A DNA stretch of 64,000 bases from Hyperoplus lanceolatus. Its lineage: Eukaryota > Chordata > Actinopteri > Uranoscopiformes > Ammodytidae. The stretch covers positions 3,536,001 through 3,600,000 of the forward strand of contig CM049404.1 of the NCBI GenBank assembly GCA_026929865.2. Direction: 5' to 3'. The translations under genes and the position numbers were made by a program. Below the pieces are notes generated by a model. The model was given only the letters and a program-made list of their open reading frames with translations. It was not told where the DNA came from and searched no databases. Below, piece after piece: positions 1,676 to 53,426 of the stretch. The stretch's first letter is position 1. Every line of letters starts with the position of its first letter.

Positions 1676-3704
1676 GGCCTACATGTTGTGTATTCAACAT
1701 TTCAACTCCTTTCATACTAATAGAACTTTTCAGGACTTCATAGTCCTTCAGCAATCCAGTTTAGCATCAGCTTTTCACTTTTCAGCAGGAAATGCATTTT
1801 CTAGTTTTTATTTTGTTCTCTTTTTCAAGACTTTTCTTATAGTTAATCAGAGGTACGCAATGCTATATGTCAAGTCAATGTTTATTATTGGGAGGGACCC
1901 ATCCAGGCAGGGGCGGATCTACCGGGGTGGCATGGGGTGGCAACTGCCACCCTAAAAAAAGCCTTGCCACCCCAGCTGCCACCCCAGTTGGCAGCGCCAA
2001 ATTAAACATTTATTTTTGGCTGTTAAGAGACATTTACGAGCGCGAGTTTCAAATGTCCGACTGCAAGTGAATGTAGCCAGGTAATATTGCTCCACCCCGA
2101 TCCCCCGCGACCCACTCCCGAGACTCCTAACCGCTCCTAACGGCACTGATTTTGAATACAAGGAAGGCGTGCGAGAGACGGATCCAAACCTCTCTAGACA
2201 AACGAAGCAAGCAGCACAGGAGACACTCTCCAGGTATTACTGATCAACTGTCTATCTATGAAAAATTACAATAATGAGAAAAGAGCAGGGCTAATGGAGT
2301 TGTAGTTTTCCTATAAAGTTAATATGCTGCTGTGTGGTGACAATGACTAGAGGTTAATAATAACGTTAGGAACTCGTGAATGCCTCGGAAAAACTACAAT
2401 AACGTTCACATCAGCGAAGATTGTGCACTAGGCCTACTGTAGGCTACTGATCCAAATTCCACAACTCATTATTTGTGTTACAGTTTAGTACAATATGTAT
2501 TCATTTATAGTTGGTTGCTCCACCTTAAGTCAGCCCAGGCAGGACAGGATAGTTAAGTTTCAGTTTCGTTTTTCATCTCCGTGTTGGACAGCTGTTCGCT
2601 CAGCTGAAGGGCTCGAGCCTCACGGAGCAGACAGCGCGAGTCAGTCTAAAAGTCAGCGAGGATCACGCTCACAAATCAAAAGCTAAATTATAAAATAAAG
2701 CTATCTCTTCCTCCCTCTGTCCACTGCACACTTAGTCACTAGTAGCTCAAAGGAAATACATGAGGATTAAAACCTCATTTTGCACTTTATTATTTTTGAA
2801 TATTTGAAGATTGCATGCAAGTAAAATACCACCAGCCACTACATTCTCAATGATAGACGTGAATAATCACTTCTTCTTTTTTTCTAAACCAATTTTTTTT
2901 AACAATAGAGGAGAATAAATATTTGAAAGCAATACAGAATGCATGATATTACTGCATTGTATTCTATTCTATTTTTGTCACCAGGAACCTAAATGTTGTC
3001 AATTACTTTACATAAACTTGATGCAAACAAATTCACCAGAATGCAGGAAATGAAGTGATGAATGCTCAAAAATTTCTGGGGGGGCACCCCCAGACCCCCC
3101 ATTTAAAAGGTGTCCTAAACCAAGGTTTAATCATAACCTATACCCTTGAAATTCATTAATTATTTTTTTTTAATTTTATCTATAGGCCTTTGTATAAGGA
3201 TATACTTCCTAATTCTTATCACACTATTTTAAATTAAAGTCTTAGGTCGTGCTTATCAATTGCTCATAATAACCAGTAGGCCTATTTCTGTGTTGGACAT
3301 TACTGAGCCTCTTCCCATTTACAGTGTTTAACAGGTCACTTGTTTGTGACCAAACATAGGAAAATGCCACACAATATTTTGATGAATGATTTTATCTGTA
3401 TTGTATGTAAATTACTAGAGTATTTGAATAACTTGATATTTGCACTCAAGTTAGACTGGTGATTGACATCTGATGGGAGTATCTCATATTAACACAGACA
3501 AATACAAAAGACTCACTGTTAACCCTTGTGGCCTCCTCGCCCATTTTTGTACATTTTTGAAGACTTTTTTTTTTGATTTGGTGATAATTTTTGCTGTGGT
3601 AAAGCTTTTGGCATGATTTTTTGCAGGAACTATTCTTTTGAGTCAAATTTTTGAAATCCAATATCCTTTACTCTTAGATGTCTTTTATACTCTGTCAGTA
3701 AATT

Positions 3705-4430
3705 TACTACCCTCTCAGCACCTTCGACCCAAAAATGTCCACGCTCACAAAAAGTGCTATTAAATCATCATACATCAATATTTTTTTCTACTTTTTTTTG
3801 CTTACATCTCTTAAACAACTTCTTACCGGCTCAAAACTACCAAACATTCAATAATTTTCAGGATTTTAACCCATTAAATGCCAGTTTAAGTATTTGAATT
3901 ATTTCAATATTTTTGACAAAAAAACACAAAAAGTTAATTATTTTCCATAATACAAATACTAGGGGGATGTGGCATTAATGGTGATTGGAATCTTGGATAT
4001 GTCAAAGATTAGCAACAAAATTGATTTGATTGCATTAGTATTTTTTATGTAGTGCCAGATGAAACATTAAGCACCCTCTCAGCACCTTCGACCCAAAAAT
4101 GTACACACACATAATCTGCAATAAAATCCTCATACATCAATATTTTTTTCTGATTTTCTTTGCTTGAATCCCTTAATCAACTTCAGCCCTGATCAACATG
4201 ACCAACTATTTGATACATTTTAGGATTTTAACTCTTTAAATGCCACTTTAATTATTAGAAGTATTTATCATTGATAAAAAAACACACAAAAAGTGAATTA
4301 TTTTCCATATAATAAATAGTAGGGGGATGAGGCATTAGTGGTGATTAGAGTATGGGATATGTCAAAGATTAGCAACCAATTTGATTTGATTGCATTAGTA
4401 TTTTCTATGTAGTGCCAGATACTCCTTCGA
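3705..4430. repeat. subterminal ~360-bp direct repeats, left arm (2 units)
   Basis: The phrase atgtagtgccagat recurs at 4047 and 4407. 'ccctctcagcaccttcgaccc' type text recurs near 3710 and 4074, giving a 360-bp period. These are the subterminal repeats of the piggyBac element and match, inverted, those at 6700-7775. Confidence 0.8.
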
Positions 4431-5008
4431 GGCAGAAAGTGCCCCATCCACTTCCATTGAAAACCACCTTTTTTAATCTCATTGCATTTCTACTATTAAA
4501 CCATGCATTTTGTAATGTTAGCATTTCATTTAGAAGAGAAGCAGTCATATTTGACATTTTTACTGTATTCCACTAGATTTAACTATTTTCCCATTGTAGG
4601 TCCATGCATGAAATTCTTGTATTTTTGACCATTCTTATATGGAGCAGTGTGACTACCAGGGGAGCCCAATAGCTTTTCTGTCTGTGTGTGTGTGCGTGTG
4701 TGTGCATGTGTAAGAGTCAGTGTGAAACTGTAAGCATGCACTGATCATTTCAGGGGTGAAAAGGGCATCTTTTTGAAGGATGTGTGTCATGTGAGGTGCT
4801 TGAGTAAAACATGGCCTTCTGCCTTTGATGTACTCAAAAACAAAAAGGAAAACAACAGTTAGTGTGTTTATGCACCTGGCTGCTTTCACAGCCAAAGTTA
4901 AACATGCAGCTTGGCTGAGGTGTCATTCCAATAGTGGGCAGAGAAGGAGAAAGAGAAGGAGAAAGAGAAGGAGAAAGAGCTGGAGAAAGAGAAAGAGAAG
5001 GAGCAAAA

Positions 5009-5640
5009 ATGAAGAGGCGTTTTAGTGATAGAGAGGTTTTAGAGATGGTCCTGGAGCAGTCTTCTTCAGACAGTGAGCTGCAAGACTCTGAAGAAGACTT
5101 CCCAGGGGAATCGGATATTGAATTTCCACTCAATACCTCCACTACGGTGAGTGCTATTTCCTCTAGTGAAGACGAGACAGAGGATCCTGTCCATCCTAAT
5201 GTTGAGTGGACAGTGAAGAACGGGCAAGTGTGGTCACCTTCTCATGCCAATACCTTACGCTACATTCCCGCACCCACCGGCATGATTCCAGGGCCTACAC
5301 GATATGCAATATCAAGGATCCACGATATAGCATTGTCATTTGACCTTTCATCACTCCTGATGATCCAGCTGATTGTGGGAATGACCAACTTACAAGGGGA
5401 CGTACAGTGTCGGTCGAGAGGGGAATCCACCCGCAGCCTGTGGGATGACCAGAGTGGGAGACCAGTTTTCAGGGCCACCATGTCCCACAAACGATTTGAA
5501 ATGCTGAGTGCAGCCTCCGCTTTGAGATCGTCTCACCCTTCCTGCTAGACACAAGGAGGATAAGCTGTCTCCATTCAGAAACATGTGGGACATGTGGACC
5601 TCCCACTCATGTTCAATTCAGGCTGCGTGAATTCCCTATC
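5009..5640 (+). pseudogene. piggyBac transposase, 5' part, frameshifted
   Basis: The likely start is the ATG at 5009 (MKRRFSDREVLEMVLEQ), preceded by a purine-only gagaaa repeat that an in-frame upstream ATG at 4934 would also translate. An acidic Ser/Glu/Asp-rich N-terminus (SSSDSELQDSEEDFPGES) is followed by piggyBac-type text: a 'TNLQ' motif, 'SLWDDQSGRPVFRATMSHKRF', then loss of frame near 5524. In the next frame 'KEDKLSPFRNMWDMW' is readable, matching the conserved DKL..R..W block of PGBD4-like transposases. The acidic domain and the start of the DDE domain are present. The rest of the catalytic domain and the C-terminal zinc-binding cysteines are missing, because the sequence degrades and then meets the inverted arm. 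It cannot encode an active transposase. On this similarity I infer a dead copy of a cut-and-paste transposase. Confidence 0.8.
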
Positions 5641-5715
5641 GACCGATACACAGCTGCTTGGATGAGTAGTCCCATGTATGCACAAATCTCTTGCTCATCT
5701 CATCACACCAACCTT

Positions 5716-6119
5716 CACTGTACGTCTCCCTTGTAGGTTGGTCATTTCCACCATCAGCTTGATCATTTCCGAGTGATAAAAAGGTCAAAAGAAGATGCAA
5801 TATCATGGATCCTAGAAATTGCATACCGTGTAGGCCCTGGAATCATGCCGGTGGGTGCGGGAATGCAGCATAAGGTATTGGCATGAGAAGGTGACCACAC
5901 TTGCCCGTTCTTCACTGTCCACTCAACATTAGGATGGACAGGATCCTCTGTCTCGTCTTCACTAGAGGAAATAGCACTCACCGTAGTGGAGGTATTGAGT
6001 GGAAATTCAATATCCGATTCCCCTGGGAAGTCTTCTTCAGAGTCTTGCAGCTCACTGTCTGAAGAAGACTGCTCCAGGACCATCTCTAAAACCTCTCTAT
6101 CACTAAAACGCCTCTTCAT
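5716..6119 (-). pseudogene. second, inverted piggyBac transposase 5' part
   Basis: This is the mirror image of 5009-5410. From the ATG at 6119 on the - strand the N-terminal ~110 residues are almost residue-identical to the left copy, including the whole acidic segment. Identity drops sharply after 'RIHDIA', where the frame stops at 5763. Beyond the stop, nucleotide similarity still runs to about 5716 (through the 'atgaccaac' and 'cgtacagtg' words). It is shorter than the left copy and lacks the catalytic region. The two copies converge, so any transcripts would be self-complementary. Confidence 0.8.
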
Positions 6120-6699
6120 TTTTGCTCCTTCTCTTTCTCTTTCTCCAGCTCTTTCTCCTTCTCTTTCTCCTTCTCTTTCTCCTTCTCTGCCCACTATTGG
6201 AATGACACCTCAGCCAAGCTGCATGTTTAACTTTGGCTGTGAAAGCAGCCAGGTGCATAAACACACTAACTGTTGTTTTCCTTTTTGTTTTTGAGTACAT
6301 CAAAGGCAGAAGGCCATGTTTTACTCAAGCACCTCACATGACACACATCCTTCAAAAGATGCCCTTTTCACCCCTGAAATGATCAGTGCATGCTTACAGT
6401 TTCACACTGACTCTTACACATGCACACACACGCACACACACACAGACAGAAAAGCTATTGGGCTCCCCTGGTAGTCACACTGCTCCATATAAGAACGGTC
6501 AAAAATACAAGAATTTCATGCATGGACCTACAATGGGAAAATAGTTAAATCTAGTGGAATACAGTAAAAATGTCAAATATGACTGCTTCTCTTCTAAATG
6601 AAATGCTAACATTACAAAATGCATGGTTTAATAGTAGAAATGCAATGAGATTAAAAAAGGTGGTTTTCAATGGAAGTGGATGGGGCACTTTCTCTCGAA

Positions 6700-7775
6700 G
6701 GAGTATCTGGCACTACATAGAAAATACTAATGCAATCAAATCAAATTGGTTGCTAATCTTTGACATATCAGATACTCTAATCACCACTAATGCCTCATCC
6801 CCCTACTATTTATTATATGGAAAATAATTCACTTTTTGTGTGTTTTTTTATCAATGATAAATACTTCTAATAATTAAAGTGGCATTTAAAGAGTTAAAAT
6901 CCTAAAATGTATCAAATAGTTGGTCATTTTGATCAGGGCTGAAGTTGATTAAGGGATTCAAGCAAAGAAAATCAGAAAAAAATATTGATGTATGAGGATT
7001 TTATTGCAGATTATGTGTGTACATTTTTGGGTCGAAGGTGCTGAGAGGGTGCTTAATGTTTCATCTGGCACTACATAAAAAATACTAATGCAATCAAATC
7101 AATTTTGTTGCTAATCTTTGACATATCCAAGACTCCAATCACCATTAATGCCTCATCCCCCTACTATTTGTATTATGGAAAATAATTCACTTTTTGTGTG
7201 TTTTTTTATCAATGATAAATACTTCTAATAATTAAAGTGGCATTTAAAGAGTTAAAATCCTAAAATGTATCAAATAGTTGGTCATTTTGATCAGGGCTGA
7301 AGTTGATTAAGGGATTCAAGCAAAAAAATCAGAAAAAAATATTGATGTATGAGGATTTTATTGCAGATTATGTGTGTGTACATTTTTGGGTCGAAGGTGC
7401 TGAGAGGGTGCTTAATGTTTCATTTGGCACTACATAAAAAATACTAATGCAATCAAATCAATTTTTTTGCTAATCTTTGACATATCCAAGACTCCAATCA
7501 CCATTAATGCCACATCCCCCTACTATTTGTATTATGGAAAATAATTCACTTTTTGTGTTTTTTTGTAAAAAATATTGAAATAATTCAAATACTTAAACTG
7601 GCATTTAATGGGTTAAAATCCTGATAATTATTGAATGTTTGGTAGTTTTGAGCCGGTAAGAAGTTGTTTAAGAGATGTAAGCAAAAAAAAGTAGAAAAAA
7701 ATATTGATGTATGATGATTTAATAGCACTTTTTGTGAGCGTGGACATTTTTGGGTCGAAGGTGTTGAGAGGGTAG
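6700..7775. repeat. subterminal ~359-bp direct repeats, right arm (3 units)
   Basis: The phrase ggcactacata recurs at 6709, 7067 and 7426, giving periods of 358 and 359 bp. 'gggtcgaaggtgctgagagggt' type text recurs at about 7030, 7389 and 7752. The left arm has only two units, so one unit was gained or lost after the palindrome formed. Confidence 0.8.
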
Positions 7776-8162
7776 TAAATTCGAAGGGGGCACAAGGGTT
7801 AACTAAGTACTTATTGCAGCCCTATTTGCATAGATTTTGAGCCCCATGCTGCTGTATTAGTGCAGGTGTTTGTTGTGAGGCAGGTAATGTAGTAATTATT
7901 CAGTAATAATAATCTTTAAAATTGTCTGACACCTTTTATGTTTAAATGTAAGGCTTCACTCGTGCTACAATACATTAAGTATTATGTTATTTAGTCAACA
8001 TATCTAAATGTGGGGGCTTTCCCAAGTACATATTTATTTATATGGCTTTAATTAAATCGGCATACTGTATATACATCCGCCACAGGTTGCCACCCCTTAA
8101 AATCTCCTGCCACCCTCTTGCCACCCCATGAATATTTTTCTAGATCCGCCCCTACATCCAGG

Positions 8163-10103: not shown

Positions 10104-11855
10104 GGGACCAATCCGAATAGTCTTTTTTGCATAGGAAATTTCCTTTCCTATCGAGATGAACCGGAAGTACTCGGCGGATAGGTGATTCGAATTCTCAAAA
10201 TGCTTAGGAAAGGCATAGGAAAGGAGCCTCGATTCATCCTTTAATCCTCCTTTAGCATAGGTTACTCCGGACCAACCTATGCGAAAGGAAAGGAGATAGT
10301 GGTATCCCATAATCCTTTACGGCGGCAAGATTTAAAGCAAAAGGCCACCGCTGGAGTTTACCGACTCTACACGAATACGAACGAGAGGTAAAACAGAATG
10401 GAAGAGAGGAAGGGCCTATCCGAATAGTCTTTTTTGCATTGGAAATTTCCTTTCCTATCGAGATGACTCGGAAGTACTCGGCAGATAGGTGATCCGAATT
10501 CTCAAAATGCTTAGAAAAGGCATAGGAAAGGAGCCTCGATTCATCCTTTACCCTCCTTTAGCATAGGTTACTCCGGACCAACCTATGCTAAAGGAAAGGA
10601 GATAGTGGTATCCCATAATCCTTACGGCGACAAGATTTAAAGCAACAGGCCACCGCCGGAGTTTACCGACTCTACACGAATACGAACGAGAGGTAAAACA
10701 GAAGAGAGGAGAAGAGAAGAGAGGAAGATTTAACTCGGCTCAAACAAAATACCTACCTCCCTCCCCTCCCCCATTAAGATAATAAAGAACTCATAAAAGA
10801 CCAACATCATAATAGTTATTTTCGTAGCACATAATTTACACCATAAGAAAATAAAATACCAACTTCACATTTAATGAAGTTACTGGGGGAAGTTCATTTC
10901 AACATCAACATAAGTGTAGCCTCTTTTTATGTGAACATGTGAATTGGGATATATGGGAGTGATTCTCACTCTGTTGGCGACAACCTGATTAAAATCAATA
11001 TGAAAAGAACACATGGATCAAACGAGCGCTTGTTGTAGTCAATTTTCGGAGAATAGTGTAGTTTCAGGCTAGTGACTCACGTCAGCAATACTCACCGTCG
11101 CGCAATGACGTCGGTTAGGAAAAGTGGAGTCGAATTCATTTGAAACAGTGCTGTCTTTTCCTATGTTCGATAGGAAGCACTTTTCATATCTCCTTAACCC
11201 CGATGACGTTTAGGGGTTAAGGTATAGGAAAGGAGGTTCATAGGTCATGAGATTGGACTATTCGGATAGGCCCGAAGATGTAACTTGGCTAAAACAAAAT
11301 ACCCCCTTCCCCTCCCCTCCCCCATAAAGATAATAAAGAACTCATAAAAGACCAACATCATAATAGTTATTTTCGTAGCACATAATTTACACCATAAGAA
11401 AATAAAATACCAACTTCACATTTAATGAAGTTACTGGGGGCAGTTCATTTCAACATCAACATAAGTTTAGCCTCTTTTTATTTCACATGTGAATTGGGCT
11501 TCAAGTGGCCTTAAATATTCCCCTTGGCCAAGTCCGATCAAAGTGATTCTCTCTGTTGGCGACAACCTGATTAAAATCAATATGAAAAGAACGCATGGAT
11601 CAAACGAGCGCTTGTTGTAGTCCATTTTCAGAGAACAATGTAGTTTCACGCTAGTGACTCACGTCAGCAATACTCGCCGTCACGCAATGATGTCGGTTAG
11701 GAAAAGTGGAGTCGAATTCATTTGAAACAGTGCTGTCTTTTCCTATGTTCGATAGGAAGCACCTTTCATCTCTCCTTAACCCCGATGACGTTTAGGGGTT
11801 AAGGTATAGGAAAGGAGGCTTATAGGTTAGGATATTGGACTATTCGGATCGGCCC
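10104..11855. mobile_element. TIR element interrupted by a copy of itself
   Basis: The outer ends are GGGACCAATCCGAATAGTC (10104) and GACTATTCGGATCGGCCC (ending ~11855). The order of blocks is left half (10104-10411), a complete element of the same family in the same orientation (10412-11273), then right half (11274-11855). The two left halves and the two right halves are each near-identical. The body repeats 'ctcctttagcataggttac', 'aataataaagaactc' and 'cgatgacgtttaggggttaagg' type phrases. No transposase frame was seen and the superfamily is unknown. Confidence 0.75.
10412..11273. mobile_element. inner complete copy of the same TIR element
   Basis: The ends GGGCCTATCCGAATAGTC and GACTATTCGGATAGGCCC are nearly perfect inverted repeats, so 862 bp is the full element. 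The junction gaggaa|GGGCC...GGCCC|gaagatg suggests a 3-bp GAA duplication, judged against the uninterrupted text gaggaagatttaac inside the inner copy. It has the same orientation as the host. Confidence 0.7.
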
Positions 11856-25345: not shown

Positions 25346-25820
25346 ACCAGGCCCCCAGGATGCTGCCTTCTCCGAGCAGCCAGCATGGACATGTGGCCAA
25401 CCCATTGGTATTGCATGGTAAGGGGTGGAGCTTATTTTCATGCGGCCCGTAGGCAGATGTCCCTGTCCACACAGTACAAGCGGCGAACAAGATTGTGTCT
25501 CTGCACATTTTTTCTGGATATCAATTATAGGCTCATACTTATCTTTAGACCATATACTATTAAAATGTAAGTTTTCTCATTTCAAAACGCCACCTCAAGC
25601 GTTTTATTAGCCCAACGGCTTTTAACGGCTTTCAGTTGGTTTTCGCCAGGCTAGATGCTACAGAACGAGACACCCGCCTCCAGTCCGCTACGCTTGCCGC
25701 CCTCTTTCTTGATAGGTCCATAATGCCACTACGTCTATGCTACGTCATGCTTTGGGCCGTATGGAATTTCCGGATTATACTTCCTTGTTGCTTCTCTGCG
25801 CCTATGAGCAGCTTTCATAG
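25346..25820 (+). repeat. duplicated ~475-bp block, copy A
   Basis: Near-identical and in the same orientation to 30875-31354, from 'accaggcccccaggatg' to 'gcagctttcatag'. Differences are a few substitutions and a short insertion at about 31060 in copy B. The flanks differ. Confidence 0.85.
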
Positions 25821-30874: not shown

Positions 30875-31354
30875 ACCAGGCCCCCAGGATGCTGCCTTCT
30901 CCGAGCAGCCAGCATGGACATGTGGCCAACCCATTGGTGTTACATGGTGAGGGGTGGAGCTTATTTTCATGCGGCCCGTAGGCAGATGTCCCTGTCCACA
31001 CAGTACAAGCAGCGAACAAGATTGTGTCTCTGCACATTTTTTCTGGATATCAATCATAAATCATAATCATACTTATCTTTAGACCATATACTATTAAAAT
31101 GTAAGTTTTCTCATTTCAAAACACCACCTCAAGCATTTTATTAGCCCAACGGCTTTTAACGGCTTTCAGTTTGTTTTCGCCAGGCTAGATGCTACAGAAC
31201 GAGACACCCGCCTCCAGTACGCTACGCTTGCCGCCCTCTTTCTTGATAGGTCCATAATGCCGCTACGTCTATGCTACGTCATGCTTTGGGCCGTATGGAA
31301 TTTCCGGATTATGCTTCCTTGTTGCTTCTCTGCGCCTATGAGCAGCTTTCATAG
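30875..31354 (+). repeat. duplicated ~480-bp block, copy B
   Basis: Counterpart of 25346-25820. See that entry. Confidence 0.85.

Positions 31355-33534: not shown

Positions 33535-53426
<19,892 letters not shown>

Follow-up and report, generated by a model that had tools for sequence, protein, structure and literature searches.

Structure of the window element

The window, the whole 64,000-nucleotide stretch of Hyperoplus lanceolatus DNA that was analysed (C10:3536001-3600000), contains a piggyBac element of 4276 bp at positions 3523-7798. The target-site duplication TTAA lies directly outside each end, at 3519-3522 on the left and at 7799-7802 on the right. The left terminal inverted repeat tip, CCCTTGTGGCCTCCTCG, occupies 3523-3539 on the forward strand, and the right tip, which is CCCTTGTGCCCCCTTCG on the reverse strand, occupies 7782-7798; both were located by inverted-repeat comparison and from genomic copies. 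This terminal inverted repeat is 17 bp long with 3 mismatches, and the tips read CCCTTGTG.

Most of the element is made up of two inverted arms, 1.9 kb on the left and 2.1 kb on the right, of which about 1.7 kb is paired. According to inverted pairing and alignment to full-length relatives, the left arm (3701-5409, forward strand) comprises the inverted end, the 5' region, and the transposase start of a relative, while the right arm (5716-7798, reverse strand) consists of the 5' half inverted to about 6433, followed by the native right end. Four ungapped inverted pairs are present, namely 3701-4160/7322-7781 (98%), 4105-4431/6694-7020 (99%), 4434-4773/6354-6693 (100%), and 4771-5348/5780-6357 (98%). 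In a single gapped register, 3709-5409 and 5716-7409 pair at 95.3%. The left-most 178 bp are unpaired in the right arm, save for the 17-bp imperfect terminal repeat, and include a segment specific to the left end (3540-3700, forward strand) that has no counterpart in the right arm and occurs at the same place in the full-length relatives. The earlier note described the locus as one giant hairpin with arms of about 1.7 and 2.1 kb. The inverted arms and the size of the right arm agree with that description, but the left arm is 1.9 kb long, its outer 178 bp do not pair, and the centre (5410-5715, from pairing and fold) forms an imperfect loop of roughly 0.3 kb. Neither TTAA nor an element tip was found in a scan of this loop.

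Repeat comparison shows that the subterminal regions are built of unequal numbers of tandem units, with two of about 360 bp in the left arm (3709-4420) and three of about 358 bp in the right arm (6705-7773). The sequence ACCCTCTCAGCACCTTCGACC recurs in these units at five places in the window element with up to 3 mismatches, and its outermost occurrence is about 25 bp inside the right tip; it is a candidate binding site of the transposase. The central 851 nt, when folded as RNA, reach -583 kcal/mol, whereas 20 shuffled sequences average -262 kcal/mol (sd 6.6). This energy is far below the shuffled mean and excludes chance for the central hairpin. Any RNA transcribed from the centre would pair almost wholly with itself.

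Transposase coding sequence

An open frame with the N-terminal part of a piggyBac transposase is present at 4919-5548 on the forward strand, with its ATG at 5009, and is broken off; its mirror copy lies at 5763-6209 on the reverse strand. The left-arm frame by itself (209 aa) gives a sub-threshold piggyBac match in Pfam (E=0.047) and no piggyBac match in PDB, whereas the transposase frame of a full-length relative on C18 (426 aa open), with which it shares 71% identity, matches PF13843 (DDE_Tnp_1_7, E=3.4e-61) and PDB 6x67 (E=1.7e-57). The assignment to piggyBac is therefore based on the transposase of the full-length relatives and not on the matches of the window frame itself. The TTAA duplication, the CC[C/T]T-type tips, and the DDE_Tnp_1_7 transposase of the full-length members are those of the piggyBac superfamily, for which terminal inverted repeats of 12-19 bp and CC[C/T]T tips are given in the available passages of PMC2872659.

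The window element has no complete transposase of its own and is thus not an autonomous element. Moreover, among 98 scored of 1172 candidates in the genome, no intact transposase of the same subfamily was found. The closest frames in this sample contain stop codons or are shortened; otherwise, frames that cover most of the query have at most 57% identity, some of them free of stops. A distant helper transposase is possible, and movement at the present day appears doubtful. Very long, internally repetitive inverted repeats, as in the foldback group, constitute most of the element. It is assigned with high confidence to a palindromic (foldback) subfamily, with non-autonomous members, of a transposon in the piggyBac superfamily.

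Full-length relatives and the origin of the segments

The genome, searched over 806.7 Mb in 527 contigs, contains four relatives, on C9, C10, C13, and C18, that are bounded by TTAA and 4932-4960 bp long. Their inverted ends are about 1 kb long (about 180-1170 against 3579-4573, 96-97% identity), and the right end has one additional unit of about 360 bp. In the coordinates of the C13 relative, the window element consists of 1-1875, 1944-2167, an inverted segment from 1976 to about 1170, and finally 3581-4955. The foldback is hence the left half of such an element, joined through a 4-bp junction to the same half in inverted orientation, which is followed by the native right end. The inversion junction, from 2167 to the inverted 1976, has a 4-bp overlap, CAGG, at window 5619-5622. 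At 5407-5409, with an overlap of about 3 bp, the left arm lacks 68 bp that are present in the relative (1876-1943). The ends were thought in the earlier note to be competent for mobilisation, and this fits their sequence, as one is the relatives' own left end and the other their own right end.

In the left part, the relatives are 91-92% identical to the foldback and are therefore cousins of the donor rather than the donor itself. Three of them (C9:1540323-1545282, C10:19521887-19526818, and C13:9164864-9169818) show 0.0% difference in the inner-arm alignment, and all three have stop codons in the transposase. This points to recent movement, perhaps with a transposase from elsewhere.

Copies with a common centre

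A 431-bp query from the centre of the element gave full-length matches at nine places, including the window (all 24 candidates were scored), and a tenth copy with the same junction is located at C5:10869576-10873428. The earlier note had proposed a search for other TTAA-bordered foldbacks, and nine further loci with the same centre junction were thus obtained. TTAA and exact CCCTTGTG tips are present at both ends in 9/10 copies (the window, C4, C1, C3a, C3b, C17, C22, C20, and C5), each of which has one left-type and one right-type end; the C7 copy has TTAA on either side and a decayed left tip. The junction sequence was found in all eight further copies inspected, with 93-95% identity, and the overlap is CAGG in seven of them and AAGG in C17. 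The left inner arm differs by 0.5-3.4% among seven copies. Further decayed relatives occur at C17:23488496-23490332 and C13:16742816.

Sequence exchange between the arms

The near-identity of the arms had been ascribed to either a recent origin or gene conversion, and both apply, given the low divergence of the left arms and alleles that are specific to one copy and present in both of its arms. Exchange was examined by permutation in seven of the ten junction copies, since C22 and C20 were omitted because of deletions or divergence and C5 lies outside the alignment. The permutation used inner-arm columns 1-660, and the innermost 59 columns were dropped after fixed left/right differences had been seen there. 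Left and right arms diverge by 1.32% within copies and by 1.76% between different copies. With the arms paired as they occur, 53 differences are counted, which is the minimum over all 5040 pairings (mean 68). In addition, nine sites carry the minority allele in both arms of one copy, against 106 minority substitutions in a single arm (eight copies, the permutation set and C22). In a tree of the inner-arm columns, the window copy, C4, and C3a each have their own left and right arms as neighbours, at low support. A gap-based test is weak, as 288/5040 pairings are equally good. Also counting against exchange are the between-arm divergence of 3.6% in C1 and 2.8% in C7, and the mean distance between right arms of different copies, which at 1.27% is not above the within-copy mean. 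Overall, the trading of sequence between arms within copies is supported statistically. In the C5 copy, the right-type end is joined to the arm in which the left-type tract and 68-bp gap lie, and C17:23488496 looks alike; we read the swapped ends of C5 as a probable product of crossing-over between arms.

The innermost tract of the left arm (5302-5407, forward strand) has kept founder differences from the right arm in the copy alignment. In the innermost 59 columns, the left and right arms differ by 13.6-15.3% in 7/7 copies tested, while the left arms do not differ from each other. Within 5302-5338 of the window, 7/8 left/right differences fall at third codon positions. The relatives mostly agree with the right arm in these columns, whereas two loci, at C10:21301600 and C13:32388900, match the left tract at 92-95%. 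The left tract thus probably comes from a diverged subfamily, so that the origin of the foldback had more than one step. The two loci (C10:21301600-21302500 and C13:32388900-32389800) are additional, diverged palindromic derivatives, and their similarity stops at a relative position of about 1875, about where the 68-bp gap of the window left arm falls.

Birth of the foldback

The foldback probably arose when the right inverted end was broken or its repair stalled. The left half of an element would then have been copied into this end, beyond the end repeat and reaching into the transposase gene, and the copied stretch would have closed at the overlaps of about 4 bp and about 3 bp. This fits a proposal made for Galileo, a P-superfamily element of Drosophila, in which one long end serves as the template for mending the other, internal sequence is carried over with it, and the terminal inverted repeat is thereby extended; the product proposed by those authors, TIR1-F1-F1-TIR2, resembles the layout of the piggyBac foldback (PMC3573991, available passages). 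In the same passages, Galileo is like the window element in having long, internally repetitive inverted ends, chimeric copies, and no functional transposase found. In contrast, the window element belongs to another superfamily and host, its extension enters the transposase gene, it is mostly palindromic, and its junction is common to ten loci.

A possible alternative, less probable than even, is a snap-back event. A nascent strand would have folded back within the transposase gene, placing 2167 on 1976, and synthesis would have proceeded outward; recombination in the shared end repeat of about 1 kb would later have restored the right end. The short loop and the 4-bp overlap of the junction are in line with such folding, and so is a second foldback whose junction maps to this part of the gene. 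However, snap-back alone predicts a left-type end on both sides, and the nine two-tip copies have one end of each type, so that a second step is required. The second piggyBac foldback type has its junction at 1936/2109, within the short part of the transposase gene that also holds the junction of the first type, and is found at C10:25478500-25479737 with a duplicate at C10:25458243-25459780 (L036, L025, L031, and L032). It holds 1876-2109 without a gap and is therefore not a simple deletion of the first type. The left flanks of these two loci are alike, which fits a local segmental duplication.

In this family, foldback birth through end-to-end copying and the exchange between arms can be read directly, because full-length relatives and ten variously diverged copies share one genome. 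In the available passages of PMC2872659, the coral CMITEs, which are piggyBac-type MITEs, share with the window element the TTAA duplication, the CC[C/T]T-type tips, and the lack of an own transposase; they are about 100 bp long, in contrast to 4.3 kb with kilobase arms. MITEs in general are short, usually <600 bp (PMC3573991, available passages), and the window element at 4276 bp is far longer. No piggyBac foldback was found in the open-licence literature as judged by titles and abstract openings, including passages of PMC2872659, PMC3259105, and PMC5822658, in agreement with the earlier note, to which piggyBac foldbacks of this size were not known as described, although the kind exists in other superfamilies.

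Foldback elements and inverted duplications of the Mu killer type are already known. Tetris and Tm1 (PMC4079207 and PMC3169594) are reportedly foldback elements, going by their titles, of families and hosts other than those of the window element. The present case shows that a piggyBac-type transposon whose ends are long and repetitive can become a kilobase palindrome that is still movable, as reported in other superfamilies.

Possible role in silencing

Mu killer of maize, a derivative of MuDR, is a partial inverted duplication of a transposase gene between element ends, for which a hairpin RNA of about 4 kb has been proposed (PMC3440606, available passages). The window element has the same arrangement, with part of its transposase gene duplicated in inverted orientation between the ends. 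According to the same passages, both ends of Mu killer derive from the transposase-side end of the parent, whereas the piggyBac foldback has ten dispersed copies, and all nine with two tips combine a left-type with a right-type end.

By analogy, the window element could be a silencing locus like Mu killer, kept by the host because its hairpin RNA suppresses the parent family, and this reading is considered unlikely. Both arms include the start of the transposase gene together with the region upstream of it, RNA from the centre would make a strong hairpin, and a close intact transposase is absent from the scored candidates, all of which suit such a locus. On the other hand, ten dispersed and decaying copies resemble ordinary transposition, and a derivative at C13:2059030-2062330 has kept both ends and lost the centre. 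A related idea of similarly low probability is a mobile silencer, a foldback that spreads on the transposase of its parent while helping to shut the parent off. Since the element holds two inward-facing copies of the parent's 5' region and transposase start, each insertion could add another origin of hairpin RNA directed at the parent family; if true, a vertebrate would have an equivalent of Mu killer that transposes. A role through double-stranded RNA or piRNA, as suggested in the earlier note, would be plausible, and the family is a natural case for testing whether small-RNA silencing in a vertebrate is fed by mobile hairpins.

Spread as one unit

The presence of the same rebuilt centre at ten genomic places means that the mirror-image form itself moved. 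The 20 flanks of the ten copies (195-196 bp each) have no mutual similarity, by which segmental duplication is rejected as the means of spread. One native left end and one native right end are kept; most likely a transposase acting in trans mobilised the palindrome through these tips by cut and paste, and movement by a piggyBac transposase is very likely.

Empty sites were sought with a 360-nt query in which 180 bp from each side of the window element were joined through one TTAA. All 40 scored genomic repeat copies (of 165 candidates) span the join at 97-98% identity; 38 of them match the whole query and two cover 1-358. For the C3b copy (C3:9844077-9848036), 40/40 scored copies (of 1637 candidates) likewise span the join at 97-99%, with matches beginning at 61-74 of the query and ending at 360. 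The window element therefore lies inside a copy of an interspersed repeat, where it arrived with one TTAA duplication. The note's proposals of a single TTAA-bounded unit and of a palindrome that moved as a whole are borne out by the closed flanks and by the ten loci with the same junction on unrelated flanks. The locus is thus a single TTAA insertion, the common centre junction recurs in ten copies on unrelated flanks, and relatives of about 4.95 kb account for every segment.

Long palindromes are a recognised assembly problem, and a mirrored or misjoined stretch could imitate the element. This explanation is very improbable, as the ten loci that share the junction are unrelated in their flanks and have substitutions and deletions of their own, and the arms of the seven tested copies differ at identical innermost sites; an artefact confined to the window locus is rejected by the same junction at nine other TTAA-bordered places. 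A chance head-to-head arrangement of two truncated piggyBac copies that inserted separately, as the window by itself may suggest and as would follow if the TTAAs at 3519 and 7799 belonged to different events, is rejected as practically negligible, because the flanks close over one TTAA within the host repeat, the centre junction recurs at nine other loci, and the loop contains neither TTAA nor an element tip.

Other features of the window

A frame of the sulfotransferase family is located at 52605-53423 on the forward strand (PF03567, E=5.2e-67). The region 10105-11847 contains direct-repeat pairs of 300, 172, 139, and 94 nt at spacings of 582, 551, 307, and 305, and is perhaps another tandemly repeated element. 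A direct repeat of about 475 bp with 97-98% identity is present at 25346-25820 and 30875-31354, 5.5 kb apart, and could represent the ends of a long-terminal-repeat element.
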